A stretch of DNA of 64,000 bases, taken from contig CAMZIL010000002.1 in the NCBI GenBank assembly GCA_947307225.1, positions 1 through 64,000 of the forward strand, written 5' to 3'. The position numbers were made by a program, and so were the translations under genes. The notes below the pieces were generated by a model. The model worked only from the letters and a program-made list of their open reading frames with translations, searched no databases and was not told the origin of the DNA. Source of the DNA: an uncultured Candidatus Saccharibacteria bacterium (lineage in GTDB: Bacteria; Patescibacteriota; Saccharimonadia; Saccharimonadales; Saccharimonadaceae). Positions 13,678-19,678 of this stretch are shown here, piece by piece (the first letter of the stretch is position 1; every line of letters starts with the position of its first letter).

Positions 13678-15270
13678 ATGCTAAAACAAACAAATATCAA
13701 ATTTAAACGGAGGTTGACGGTAGCTGGCCTAGCGGCAATAGCGATTGCAGCGCTAATACCGTTCTCCTCTAGCTCGGCATGGGGGCCGGAGAATCGTAAG
13801 ACTTTTACGAATAAAAGTCCTGCAGATTATCCAGTCTTTAACTCGATTACCGACAACGCCGGTGTGGGCGACGAACGCAACTTCGTTCGTATCAAAGAAG
13901 TCGGCACGAGTGGAAAATATGTCGACACGGTCAACGTCACGGCTGGCAAGGAGTATGAGGTTTATATCTACTTCCACAACAATGCCAAGACGAGCCTCAA
14001 CAAGACTGCCGATGGCAAGCTAGGCCCAGGCGTCGCAACTCAGGTGAAAGTATCTACGGGTCTTTCCGCCTGGACTATTAACTCATCCAAGAAGATTAAA
14101 GTTAGTGGCGTGATTTCGTCCTCTAATACTAATCCAGCTTCCGTTTGGGATGAGGCGTACCTTACTACTTCCTCTAAAGACGATATTGTTCTTAAGTATG
14201 TAACTGCTTCTGCAAAGATTCATAACAGTTTCGAGGCAAACAATTCCGTACTTAGCGATAAGTATCTCTTTAGTAGCGAAGGCACATATATTGGCGTGAA
14301 TAAACTAAACGGCTATATTCCTGGCTGTGCAGAATACTCCGGCTATATTACATATCGCATTCGTGCTGATGTAGCAAAATCTACGATTAGCAAGACCGTT
14401 TCAAAAGATGGCAAGAACTTCTATGAAACTGTCGACGCAAAACCTGGCGACACGCTTACTTACAAGGTTGTCTGGAAGAACACTGGTACGCTCGATCTTA
14501 CGAACGTAACTTTCCACGATAAGCTTCCAACTGGCGTTACGCTAGTCAACGGCACTACGATGCTTTACAACAACTCCAATCCAAATGGCGTAAAGATGTC
14601 AGATTCGATTGGTAAAACTGGTTTCAAGACCGGCCTTTATGGCAAAAATACAACTGCGACGATTACTTATAAAGTAACCGTAAACAAAGACGCTGTAGCA
14701 AAGAAAGATTGTAATTCGAAGACTGCATTTACGAATAAAATCTTTGCTGACTACAACGTTGGTTCGACTTCTGGCGTGGGTGAGGTATATGATAGCTCCA
14801 CCATTTATGTAACCCGCGTTTGTGAGCCTGAAAAGAAAGAGCCATGTAAGCCGGACGATAAGGACTGTATCTGTAAAGAGAATCCAAAGGATCCAATTTG
14901 CGAGGAGCCAAAGACTCCATGCAAAGAAGGTGATCCGGAATGTCCTGGTGACACCAAGTGTGATCCAAACGACAAGGAATGTATCTGTACGGAAGATCCG
15001 AAGAACCCAATTTGTGAGGAACCTTGCAAAGAAGGTGATCCGGAATGTCCAGGTGACGACGACGAATGTGACGACGACGACGTCGATTGTATCTGTAAAG
15101 AAGATCCAACCAATCCAATTTGTAATCCGCCAATTCCAAAGACTGGTCCTGGCGAGATTGCCTTGGCAATTGTTGCAGTAGTCTGTATTGCAACTGGCGG
15201 TATCTACTGGTATCGTAGCCAAAAAGACCTTGCGACGATCGAGAAGGGTCTCGACAAGGGTAAAAAATAA
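13678..15270 (+). CDS. Secreted surface protein: DUF11-like repeat domain, Cys-rich stalk, IPKTG sorting-type signal
   Basis: Signal peptide, DUF11-like GDTLTYKVVWKNTGTLDLTNVTFHDKLPTGVTLVNG, repeated CICKE(N/D)PK(D/N)PICEEP, C-terminus IPKTGPGEIALAIVAVVCIATGGIYWYRSQK. Confidence 0.8.
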   Translation: MLKQTNIKFKRRLTVAGLAAIAIAALIPFSSSSAWGPENRKTFTNKSPADYPVFNSITDNAGVGDERNFVRIKEVGTSGKYVDTVNVTAGKEYEVYIYFHNNAKTSLNKTADGKLGPGVATQVKVSTGLSAWTINSSKKIKVSGVISSSNTNPASVWDEAYLTTSSKDDIVLKYVTASAKIHNSFEANNSVLSDKYLFSSEGTYIGVNKLNGYIPGCAEYSGYITYRIRADVAKSTISKTVSKDGKNFYETVDAKPGDTLTYKVVWKNTGTLDLTNVTFHDKLPTGVTLVNGTTMLYNNSNPNGVKMSDSIGKTGFKTGLYGKNTTATITYKVTVNKDAVAKKDCNSKTAFTNKIFADYNVGSTSGVGEVYDSSTIYVTRVCEPEKKEPCKPDDKDCICKENPKDPICEEPKTPCKEGDPECPGDTKCDPNDKECICTEDPKNPICEEPCKEGDPECPGDDDECDDDDVDCICKEDPTNPICNPPIPKTGPGEIALAIVAVVCIATGGIYWYRSQKDLATIEKGLDKGKK

Positions 15271-15696: not shown

Positions 15697-15724
15697 CAAA
15701 AAACTCCCAAAAAGGGAGTTTTTT
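15697..15724 (+). terminator. Intrinsic terminator after rplU
   Basis: AAAAAACTCCCaaaaaGGGAGTTTTTT. Confidence 0.85.
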
Positions 15725-15792
15725 GGTGCTGCTTATGTTATTATATAAGCATAAATAGTAAGGCTTCAGAAGTGAGGCCAGCGGAGGTAAAA

Positions 15793-16356
15793 ATGAGTAA
15801 AAAGAGAAGCGCTGCTGCTGCGTTCATCGTTTTGGGCGTAGTTGTCTTGGGACTTGCTGCTGCTGTTTATGCGAAATACGTTTCGACGATTCAGGCTACG
15901 GGCGAGATTTCAGTCGCGAAATGGGCATTTACGTCCGACAACACTGACGGTGGAACCGTTGAGTGTGTATTAAGCAAGACATACAACGCAGCTACGCTAG
16001 TAGCCGATAAGATTGCGCCTGGTACGTCCGGCAAGTGCCCGATTGTAGTATCGAATGAGAATACTGAAGTTGGCATTCGCTATACGATTACTCCAAGCAC
16101 TGATAGTGCAAAACCAGTACACCTAAAGTTCTATACGGACGAAGAGCACACAACGGAGTTGACTAGCGGCGACTCTATTACTGACACGTTGAGGCCACAG
16201 GAAACCAGCCCCGAAGTGTATGTATATTGGTACTGGCCATATGAGGACGATCCTAGCACGGCCGCATATGATGAGGTCGATACTAATGACGGTGAAACCA
16301 AGACCGACATGACGATTACCTTCGATATTACTGGCACTCAGGTCAAGCCAGAATAA
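15793..16356 (+). CDS. TasA/camelysin-like secreted protein (gene A of surface cluster)
   Basis: Short signal-anchor followed by AVYAKYVSTIQATGEISVAKWAF and C-terminal VYVYWYWPYEDD...YDEVDTNDGE..MTITFDITGTQ, as in TasA/CalY-type proteins. Confidence 0.65.
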   Translation: MSKKRSAAAAFIVLGVVVLGLAAAVYAKYVSTIQATGEISVAKWAFTSDNTDGGTVECVLSKTYNAATLVADKIAPGTSGKCPIVVSNENTEVGIRYTITPSTDSAKPVHLKFYTDEEHTTELTSGDSITDTLRPQETSPEVYVYWYWPYEDDPSTAAYDEVDTNDGETKTDMTITFDITGTQVKPE

Positions 16357-16370
16357 TAAAAATATACTTT

Positions 16371-16442
16371 GTGGAGACTTTTAGTCTCCACATGGACAAT
16401 GAATGAACAAATTGATTGGCCATGCGGAGACTAAAAGAGGAG
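16371..16442 (+). promoter_or_regulatory. Mutually exclusive hairpins preceding the second gene of the surface cluster
   Basis: GTGGAGACT-TTT-AGTCTCCAC (16371-16391) versus CTTTTAGTCTCCaCATGG (16378-16395) pairing with CCATGcGGAGACTAAAAG (16420-16437), abutting SD AGAGGAG. Confidence 0.6.
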
Positions 16443-16444
16443 TA

Positions 16445-17176
16445 ATGAAAGAGCAACAAGACAAAGACAACAAGGGTTTAATTGCGGCCGTAGTCGTATT
16501 AGTGATAACGGTCGGTGTTTTGTTGTGGCTCCTCTTCAAGCCGATGTCCAAACCGGATAAAATCGAGACCGGAAATGTCGACGTTTTTGATATTCGGATT
16601 GGTTGTATTTGCGAGGGCGAGGACTGCGCTAAAGATAAAGACGGCTTTATACCCGATTTGACGCCTAGCAAGAGAGAACGGGGCGAGTACAGGGAAGGAA
16701 AGATTAACGGCGAGACGGACACCGACGTAGATGACGACGGAATTGTTTATGTTGACGATAAGAATGGCTCATATGTCTATCAGAAGAATTTGGCCATTTT
16801 TGAAAACGCTGCGTTTGAATATACGGACAAGATTACGCCTGGCGTATCGAATTCTTATCGTTTCAAGGTTCACAATGAGACGAGCGGCTCGATTCGCTAT
16901 AATATCGTGTTCTCGGAAAAGTCTGAATATGACATCAACATGCTTTACAGACTGAAGCGTGGCGATGATTATGTGGTCGGCAGCGACTCACAGTGGGTGA
17001 GAGCGGCTGAGCTGGCGTCAGCAATGAAGAATTTGTCTAGCGATGGCGTCGATAGTTATACGCTGGATTGGCAATGGCCATATGAGAGTGGTAGGGATGC
17101 GCTAGATACGGAAATTGGCGAAAAGATGACTTCCAAGTACAGCTTGGGCATAAAAATTAACTTCGAGGAAATATAG
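16445..17176 (+). CDS. TasA/camelysin-like membrane-anchored protein (gene B)
   Basis: N-terminal TM, then GNVDVFDIRIG and VHNETSGSIRYNIVFSE; ends YTLDWQWPYESGRDALDTEIGEK, sharing the W.WPYE..D..DT signature with gene A. Confidence 0.6.
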   Translation: MKEQQDKDNKGLIAAVVVLVITVGVLLWLLFKPMSKPDKIETGNVDVFDIRIGCICEGEDCAKDKDGFIPDLTPSKRERGEYREGKINGETDTDVDDDGIVYVDDKNGSYVYQKNLAIFENAAFEYTDKITPGVSNSYRFKVHNETSGSIRYNIVFSEKSEYDINMLYRLKRGDDYVVGSDSQWVRAAELASAMKNLSSDGVDSYTLDWQWPYESGRDALDTEIGEKMTSKYSLGIKINFEEI

Positions 17177-17177
17177 C

Positions 17178-17690
17178 ATGGCGATGACGAAGAAGCGCGT
17201 CGCAATTTGCAAGTATGCAGCTCTTCTAATTTTTATGTCCTGCGCATTGCTAGTGGGGATAAGTGCAGCGAAAATGGCAAGCACTGAAGCCATCGAGAGA
17301 AATGACGAGATTCAAGTGGCAGGTTGGAGCGTGGATGTGAGCACGACTAGCAGTGATAGTATGACGTTGGACGCGGGGGAAGGCGCGCAGACCTATGAGC
17401 TGACTGTGGCGAATAACTCCGACGTCGCTAGCGATTACGTGATAAAGGTATCCAATATACCATCTGGGGTGAAAATCGGTTTGGACATTCAGTCTGATAG
17501 CGACTTGGTAGTGCCAACTGGCGGCGAAGTAGTATTTACTAACACGAGCGGCAGTTTGGGCTATGCGGCACCAGATAATACGAGGTCGCATGTCCTGACT
17601 TTAGTAGCAGAACCAACGGCGAATATTACGCAGAGAGGTGTTAACATGTCGATAGAAGTGCGATTTGCGCAAAAGGATCCAGAGCTATGA
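17178..17690 (+). CDS. TasA/camelysin-like secreted protein (gene C)
   Basis: Signal region GISAAKMASTEAIERNDEIQVAGWSVDVS resembles gene A; beta-rich body; overlaps gene D. Confidence 0.55.
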   Translation: MAMTKKRVAICKYAALLIFMSCALLVGISAAKMASTEAIERNDEIQVAGWSVDVSTTSSDSMTLDAGEGAQTYELTVANNSDVASDYVIKVSNIPSGVKIGLDIQSDSDLVVPTGGEVVFTNTSGSLGYAAPDNTRSHVLTLVAEPTANITQRGVNMSIEVRFAQKDPEL

Positions 17691-19678
17691 GGCGGAAGTT
17701 TGCGTATCTATTGCTAGGGCTTGTAGCCACGACGGCGGTTGGCTGCTTGTGCGCTGACGAGGCGAGTGCAAAGTATGCCGAAAGCAAGAGTTTGTCCTTG
17801 ACGATTAATATCGAGAAGCATTACGAGGTTGAGTTTAGAGCTAACGGCGGTATTGGCTCGATGGCGAACCAACAGTTTACGGCCGGAGTTTCGCAGGCTT
17901 TGACGGCTAATGCATTCACGCAAGAGGGGTATCACTTTATCGGATGGAACCGCGTAGCGACTGGCGGCATGGAGGGCGATTTTTATGAAAACCAAGAGAT
18001 GATCAGTACTGACCTGACGAACATTGGCGGTGGAACCGTGGTTTTGTATGCCCAGTGGGAGAAGAATGCGATGAAGACGGTGTTCGAAATCACGGGCGCG
18101 TGCATCTTTCATGGTTATGATATACAGCAGAATACGGGCGATGGTTATATTACGGGTACAGATTGTACGTCTAACGGCACGAATTGGGCTGATGGCTCAC
18201 ATAAATATATCGATTCCGACATCAAACTCTACGATACGACGAATTATGAGAAAGACTATGAGATTGGTTTCATAATTCAGAGTTATGATCAGGCTCATCA
18301 ATATATTGAGCCGGGCGATTCTGCGAGCCAAGCTACCTTTATGAACTCGAAATACGAGAATGAAGATAGGCATTGGCCGGGTATTGTTATTCGTAAAAGT
18401 GCCGAGAAGATTGAGATTACTCAAACTATCAAAAAAGGCAACACACACGAGAAGAAGACGGGTTCTAAAGCGAGCGCGGATGGGATGAAAGTTGTGATTA
18501 CGAGGGTTGACGGCGTGGTCTATTATTCGTTTAACGATGGCCCGTTTACGGTGTTGCAAGATATGAATGGCACGTCTGACTATTTTGACGTGGATGTATG
18601 GTTTGGCGCCTCCGAAAAGAGTGACGGGACTCCGATGCGCTATATTGATGCTGCATTATCTGATATTTATATTAAGGTTGGCGAGAAGGGGTCGAATAAG
18701 CACGTAGTTAGCTTTGACGCTGGTGGCGTTGTGGCTGATCCGGATGATGTGACGGTTATCTCGACTAGAACAATCGGTAACAATTTGCCTAGTATGCCTG
18801 AATATGAAGATACTGAGGAAGGGCGTTTGTACTTCATCGGTTGGTATACTGGCGCTGACGGCACAGGCGAGAAGGTCACGGAGGATACCGTGATCGACCG
18901 CGACGTTGCGCTTTATGCATTTTGGAATGACGAAAAGATTGTATGTAGCGCAGCGGGCGAGACGGATGACACTTTGCAAGACTGCGTCAATAAGGCTGGC
19001 GCTGGCGATACGGTCACGCTTCTCGATAACATTAGGGAGCAGATAACCGTGGCAAATGGCAAAGAAATCATACTCGATTTGAATGGCCACAAATTGAGTG
19101 ATAACTCAGTGGCGGGCAAACCGGTGATTGAAAACTTCGGTAAATTGACGGTCATAAATGGTACTATCACCTCGACGCTTAGGGCAGGCGTATTGAATAA
19201 TAACTCCACGGGTGAGATGTATATCGGAAGCGATGCTCGTATTATTGCAACTGGCATTCGCCAGGCAATCTACAACAACGGCGGTAGGCTCGAAATTAGT
19301 GGCAATGCATATCTTAGCGCCGTATCGAGTGAACGTGCGACGGTCCATAACTTGGCTGGCGGTAGTTTAGTTATTAAGGGCGGTACGATTATTGCGACGA
19401 AGCAAGAGGCTGTGAAGGTTGACTCCGGCTCGCTCGTGATTGGAACTGAGGATGGAACGGCGCATAATGATACGCCAGTCATTCAGGGCGCAACCTATGG
19501 CGTGACGACTAGCGTGAATATCACGATGTATGACGGTGTTTTGAGAGGCAAAACGGCTGCCATTAACGATACGACTAAGATTGCGGAATGGGAAGACGGA
19601 GCGACGGCGGTTGGCATTGACTCAGTCGTGACCGAGACGATCGATGGCGTCGTTTATGAGGTGATATATTACCAATAG
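17687..19678 (+). CDS. Large secreted protein with two InlB-type B-repeats and C-terminal beta-helix-like repeats (gene D)
   Basis: YEVEFRANGGIGSM...GYHFIGWNRVATGG...LYAQWE and VVSFDAGGVVADPDD...LYFIGWYTGADGTG...LYAFWN; then VINGTITSTL..GVLNNNSTGEMYIGSDARI..GGRLEISGNAYL..GGSLVIKGGTI. Confidence 0.75.
   Translation: MRRKFAYLLLGLVATTAVGCLCADEASAKYAESKSLSLTINIEKHYEVEFRANGGIGSMANQQFTAGVSQALTANAFTQEGYHFIGWNRVATGGMEGDFYENQEMISTDLTNIGGGTVVLYAQWEKNAMKTVFEITGACIFHGYDIQQNTGDGYITGTDCTSNGTNWADGSHKYIDSDIKLYDTTNYEKDYEIGFIIQSYDQAHQYIEPGDSASQATFMNSKYENEDRHWPGIVIRKSAEKIEITQTIKKGNTHEKKTGSKASADGMKVVITRVDGVVYYSFNDGPFTVLQDMNGTSDYFDVDVWFGASEKSDGTPMRYIDAALSDIYIKVGEKGSNKHVVSFDAGGVVADPDDVTVISTRTIGNNLPSMPEYEDTEEGRLYFIGWYTGADGTGEKVTEDTVIDRDVALYAFWNDEKIVCSAAGETDDTLQDCVNKAGAGDTVTLLDNIREQITVANGKEIILDLNGHKLSDNSVAGKPVIENFGKLTVINGTITSTLRAGVLNNNSTGEMYIGSDARIIATGIRQAIYNNGGRLEISGNAYLSAVSSERATVHNLAGGSLVIKGGTIIATKQEAVKVDSGSLVIGTEDGTAHNDTPVIQGATYGVTTSVNITMYDGVLRGKTAAINDTTKIAEWEDGATAVGIDSVVTETIDGVVYEVIYYQ

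Follow-up and report, generated by a model that had tools for sequence, protein, structure and literature searches.

Saccharibacteria are small organisms that use their surface to live on other bacteria, and to our knowledge their post-transcriptional control is poorly understood. Between the first two genes of one of their surface-protein operons lies a sequence in which a single strand could pair with either its upstream or its downstream neighbor. This raises the question of whether the two pairings are features of the transcript and, if so, what they might do for the genes on either side. We analyzed this locus in a stretch of 64,000 nucleotides (hereafter the window, meaning the whole stretch) and in related genomes. 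The analysis points to an RNA element, supported by covariation, within an operon for surface proteins of Saccharibacteria; its shared-arm alternative pairing could explain how unequal amounts of subunits are obtained from one transcript.

Gene cluster and genomic setting

The cluster consists of four genes on the forward strand. The product of gene A (15793-16356) is small, secreted and beta-rich, and it bears a TasA/SipW-type signal-peptide motif (AKY...KWAF). Gene B (16445-17176, ATG at 16445) encodes a membrane-anchored or secreted protein that is a distant relative of A, gene C (17178-17690) a secreted protein, and gene D (17687-19678) a large surface protein with Listeria-Bacteroides repeats. 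Products of A, B and C all appear to be secreted, and A and B are distant paralogues. In the window, C begins 1 nt past the end of B and D overlaps C by 4 nt; relatives have the order A-element-B-C-D, with a B-C spacing of 0-5 nt and a C-D overlap of 4 nt. The A/B gap is the sole long junction of the operon. The named relatives are Saccharibacteria metagenome-assembled genomes (MAGs), several of them obtained from the rumen and omasum of sheep or goats.

The predicted structure of A had a mean pLDDT of 64, and its best Foldseek matches were pilus subunits with TM <0.5. A sequence search of the PDB gave no match for A, and searches of Pfam and NCBIfam gave none over the cut-off. The fold may thus be pilin-like, at low confidence, and the assignment to TasA/pilin proteins is tentative; the product of gene A is a probable major fibre subunit. 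A SipW-type signal peptidase is encoded elsewhere in the window's genome, away from the cluster.

Upstream, an intrinsic terminator with a 12-bp stem and a U-tract (15697-15725) parts rplU from the A operon. It is followed on the forward strand by a putative extended -10 promoter (TATGTTATTAT, 15734-15744; TATGCTATAAT in several relatives), which is conserved before gene A (window 15734-15792 and the leaders L050-L062). A leader hairpin (15762-15779, forward strand) immediately precedes the Shine-Dalgarno sequence of gene A. Its position is conserved and its sequence is variable, with stems that differ by genome among L050-L062 (GGCTTC/GAGGCC, ACTCC/GGAGT, CTTCTC/GAGAAG). Hairpins at both ends may protect the A message. 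In most relatives, rplU and the cluster are directly preceded by a gene for a DUF11 surface protein; in the window (13678-15270) the C terminus of this protein has a PKTGPGE-membrane-KK motif that looks like a sortase sorting signal.

Two pairings that share one arm

The whole element occupies 16370-16437, between the secreted-protein genes A and B, and all of its parts lie on the forward strand. Strand a (16370-16379) is the 5' arm of a short hairpin. Strand a' (16378-16392, its extension overlapping a by 2 nt) is the shared arm, able to pair with a or with a''. An apical hairpin (16391-16424) follows, and strand a'' (16423-16437) is the 3' arm of a long helix. The short hairpin pairs TGTGGAGACT (16370-16379) with AGTCTCCACA (16383-16392) around a TTT loop and measures 10 bp, one more than given in a preliminary description of the locus, whose coordinates otherwise all check. 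The perfect pairing of 16378-16389 with 16426-16437 reported there is present, and so is its extension to 17 of 18 pairs (16378-16395 with 16420-16437), the single mismatch being A16390 with C16425. In full, the long-helix arms reach 27 nt (16378-16404 and 16411-16437) and are 89% complementary. As had also been described, the duplex ends on the Shine-Dalgarno sequence of gene B (AGAGGAG, 16436-16442, forward strand), which stands directly at its foot and overlaps it by 2 nt. Strands a and a'' are near-direct repeats, and the element sequence as such is an inverted repeat.

The 111-nt region around the element folds at -33.7 kcal/mol (z = -6.6), and none of 200 shuffled sequences was equally stable. 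Elsewhere in the 64-kb window, the shared-arm score of 18 (simple ungapped scoring) recurs just twice, once per strand, and neither site has an equally strong upstream arm. Such a pattern in a single copy is unusual by chance, not impossible, and the pattern alone is no proof; it is conservation in relatives that settles what the single copy cannot, and on that ground we judge the element real. An Rfam search of the element gave nothing above the gathering score and weak matches at chance level only, and a known Rfam family or riboswitch was therefore rejected. A small open reading frame in the element was dismissed as well: its ATG-to-stop peptide in the window, MDNE, is not kept across homologues.

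Conservation of both helices

Covariation statistics for the long helix were obtained from a MAFFT alignment of 15 elements, and changes were counted by parsimony on a tree of 16 B-protein sequences. Helix a'-a'' was paired in 92.5% of cells, with a covariation of 0.327 compared to 0.083-0.155 for slid partners, and RNAalifold recovered the same helix independently. On the tree it showed 16 pair-keeping double changes, 18 single changes and 7 breaks. Wobble cells were G.U in 37 cases versus A.C in 6, an excess which implies that the constraint acts on the gene-sense transcript.

The short helix a-a' gave a weaker signal than the long one, with 3 double changes, 5 single changes and 6 breaks on the tree and no excess of G.U over A.C (5 versus 5); it is weakened in four sequences (L003, L013, L014 and L047). 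The fit of each a to its own a' was 133.5 of 144, compared with a permutation mean of 124.3, and none of 20,000 permutations, uncorrected for relatedness, equaled it. For a' and a'' the fit was 132.5 of 144, a value reached by 2 of 20,000 permutations, again uncorrected for relatedness. At two positions covariation extended across all three strands: p3 is G-C-G or A-T-A, and p10 is T-A-T or C-G-C. At p5, a conserved U.G wobble makes a'-a'' weaker relative to a-a'. The preliminary description had named a lack of covariation of both helices in relatives as one finding that would speak against it; compensatory changes were found in both. The comparison of sequences thus makes it well supported that a conserved, mutually exclusive RNA structure is real.

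Distribution among Saccharibacteria

Gene B is present in 15 of 45 genomes of the genus. When a covariance model built on the long helix was searched in the same 45 genomes, it detected one locus per genome, in exactly the 15 genomes that carry B and in one other, G027. In the latter, A-B-C-D is deleted between rplU and an M50 peptidase gene, and the scar (L032:1440-1650) still contains the end of A, the hairpin and the opening codons of B. This relic hairpin is decayed, with a folding energy of -22 kcal/mol versus -30.6 to -37.2 kcal/mol in the 16 intact Saccharibacteria gaps, all of which lie below the value of about -15 kcal/mol that serves as a criterion for selective RNA processing and stabilization (SRPS). 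In a sample of 297 genomes of the family, there was just one further strong match, in G252, which belongs to another genus. Here A, the element, B and C (L047) occupy a different genomic site beside a tRNA gene, which suggests horizontal transfer of the cluster. As there is a single locus per genome and it accompanies the A-B pair, the element is not a dispersed repeat, and a mobile palindromic repeat of the REP or MITE kind was rejected on the search of the 45 genomes.

In the clusters of distant Saccharibacteria (L072-L074) the A-B gap measures about 9-30 nt and holds no hairpin, indicating that such operons can manage without the element. In L072 and L073, signal peptidase genes adjoin A-B, as they do in the SipW operons of Bacilli and Clostridium.

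The layout in Bacilli

A homologue of B was detected in a Bacilli MAG (L065, labeled Erysipelotrichaceae), in which a SipW-type signal peptidase gene lies next to B, and this homologue led to A-B pairs in the same family. Their A-B gaps contain a short hairpin, an apical hairpin beside it and a third strand that could lengthen the apical hairpin (for example, GGAAGTTATTTAACTTCC...GGAAACTAAATA in L079 and CGAATAATATGAAAATATTATTCTTTCG...CGAGAGCGTAATGG in L093), so that the a/a'/apical/a'' layout is kept with a different sequence. A count of bases that switch partners between the prefix and the full transcript was too noisy for these AU-rich gaps, and conditional shuffles, with apical boundaries chosen by eye, were used instead. 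The downstream strand, given a' and the apical hairpin, beat its shuffles in 13 of 14 gaps (p < 0.05), as did the upstream strand, given a' (p < 0.05, 13 of 14); L086 failed with the boundary chosen for it. One gap, L078, departs from the others in that the two-hairpin form is preferred. In more distant Firmicutes, strong hairpins are present in the A-B gap with no clear shared arm. On these sequence comparisons, the layout is one that occurs in two phyla, Saccharibacteria and Bacilli.

Folding and access to the B start

Predicted folds were the same in all 17 Saccharibacteria-type sequences: transcripts stopping before a'' form the short and apical hairpins, and full transcripts form the long hairpin. 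In each of the 17 the long form is favored, by 2.7-16 kcal/mol, and therefore the element is not bistable at equilibrium in these sequences. According to these folds, the short form would be expected to exist only briefly while the RNA is being made, or to reappear when a'' is removed.

Apart from its 2-nt overlap with the foot of the long helix, the Shine-Dalgarno sequence of gene B is free of both helices and is buried in neither form, and a thermosensor or translational switch that sequesters it was rejected on this account. The fold of the window pairs this sequence with an upstream ACTTTG, a pairing that is not general among relatives. The preliminary description had seen in this locus a switch-like arrangement that could set the ratio of gene A to gene B, and control of this ratio is plausible. 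The two alternative helices are indeed conserved, but regulation as a switch fits poorly with the energetic preference for the long form and the unsequestered Shine-Dalgarno sequence. In L006 and L010, the B start has no clear Shine-Dalgarno sequence (CTAAGAAGTAGATACACAATG), in contrast to most other relatives.

Possible function of the element

We infer that the element functions in SRPS and increases A relative to B-C-D, the a-a' hairpin forming again as a 3' cap after cleavage, an explanation that we hold to be as apt to be right as wrong. In the nascent RNA, a' is predicted to pair first with the upstream a. In an exchange of strands next to the apical hairpin, a'' would then displace a, and an imperfect duplex of 20-27 bp would result, which would flag the A-B junction for cleavage by RNase Y or RNase III. 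After the loss of a'' through this cut, a would be free to pair with a' again, so that their hairpin would cap the freshly made 3' end of the A message, and the outcome would be an excess of A protein over B-C-D. Processing is favored by the location behind the first gene, by the length of the duplex, by the occurrence of both enzymes and by the lack of a U-tract, none having been found after either hairpin of the Saccharibacteria elements. On the lack of a poly-U run the preliminary description had already favored translational or RNA-processing control over termination, and the preference for processing gains from the rplU terminator nearby, which has a U-tract; by the same test, an intrinsic terminator was rejected. 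RNase Y was detected in 21 of 21 genomes, including that of the window. RNase III was detected in 30 of 31; only the draft assembly of the window's genome gave no match, probably because of an assembly gap. The SRPS scheme also gives strand a an obvious use, since it can cap the A message when a'' is gone. In a bolder version, which we offer tentatively and as rather doubtful, a' would serve to cut and cap: through the cleavage duplex made with a'' and then the 3' cap made with a, the A message would mature irreversibly and the ratio of fibre subunits would be set, in a design shared by Saccharibacteria and Bacilli, perhaps by horizontal transfer of the cluster.

The alternatives differ mainly in what they ask of the two hairpins. 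If the element were a regulatory switch, some signal (a ribosome at the A stop codon, temperature, a protein or a ligand) would hold or release the short hairpin and thereby alter the translation or stability of B. The mutually exclusive helices with their three-strand covariation agree with this idea, as do the U.G pair at p5 and the location of a, which starts about 6-27 nt past the A stop codon, in or near the reach of a stopped ribosome. However, the spacing from the stop codon to a is not conserved, no Rfam aptamer exceeded the gathering score, the Shine-Dalgarno sequence remains accessible and the long form is stabler in every Saccharibacteria-type sequence, and we regard a switch as unlikely. 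Partial transcription attenuation after A, of a non-canonical or Rho-type kind, with readthrough yielding B-C-D, is in our view a slim prospect. A short and a readthrough mRNA are known for C. perfringens sipW-bsaA (PMC7395162), and strong hairpins follow A-like genes in the distant Firmicutes L111, L113 and L115, but the Saccharibacteria hairpins lack the U-tract that intrinsic terminators in use nearby (rplU) possess.

It is also conceivable that the long hairpin alone matters, for cleavage or 3' stability, with a as a by-product whose match to a' is incidental. The excess of breaks over compensations in the short helix, its lack of a G.U excess and its weakness in four sequences are in line with this idea. 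It would leave unexplained why all 20,000 permutations gave a poorer fit of a to a' than the true partners, why the upstream hairpins of Bacilli beat shuffles in 13 of 14 gaps and why the layout persists through sequence turnover, and we consider it improbable. Least of all do we expect a DNA-level feature (an operator palindrome, a cruciform or the remnant of a mobile repeat). The inverted repeat and the near-direct repeats a and a'' are what recommends it, but the locus is single in each genome, the wobble bias of the long helix is strand-specific, and pairing is kept while the sequence differs between groups.

Comparison with known systems

In three-strand (A/A'/A'') riboswitch and attenuator platforms, one strand pairs alternately upstream or downstream during sequential folding. 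The A-B element resembles these platforms in the alternative pairing of one strand and in its predicted sequential folding, and differs from them in that no aptamer or U-tract was found, the Shine-Dalgarno sequence is free and the location is intergenic rather than in a leader.

For the preferred reading, SRPS, the closest parallel considered is the cip-cel operon of Clostridium (Ruminiclostridium) cellulolyticum, in which stem-loops direct cleavage and protect message ends (PMC4423207, PMC10311766). According to the available text of these papers, strong intercistronic stem-loops follow a subunit gene there, mostly without a U-tract, cleavage of the RNase Y type is proposed, and some sites have a small and a large stem-loop in succession (PMC4423207, PMC10311766). 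The A-B element is similar in having strong U-tract-free stem-loops after a probable subunit gene. However, the cip-cel stem-loops are described there as separate, whereas the two hairpins of the A-B element have an arm in common and cannot form together; in the same text alternative pairing is not mentioned, and neither paper contains the term "mutually exclusive" (PMC4423207, PMC10311766). Unlike that of cip-cel, the layout of the A-B element is found in two phyla, while cleavage at the A-B element is something that we infer. The findings are best read as a mechanism of the SRPS type, already known, combined with a shared-arm design that is new.

The sipW-bsaABCRSD operon of C. perfringens offers a second comparison. 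A SipW-dependent fibre-subunit gene is carried there on a short message and the downstream genes on a longer readthrough message, and a structure in the 3' flank of bsaA is predicted to be a transcription terminator (PMC7395162). The A-B operon is similar in that a structure lies in the 3' flank of a probable fibre-subunit gene with a TasA/SipW-type signal motif; the two differ in that a terminator is predicted in C. perfringens and the A-B element has no U-tract. Very strong tandem hairpins are present in the 142-193-nt A-B gaps of L111, L113 and L115, and these may be analogous to the terminator predicted downstream of bsaA.
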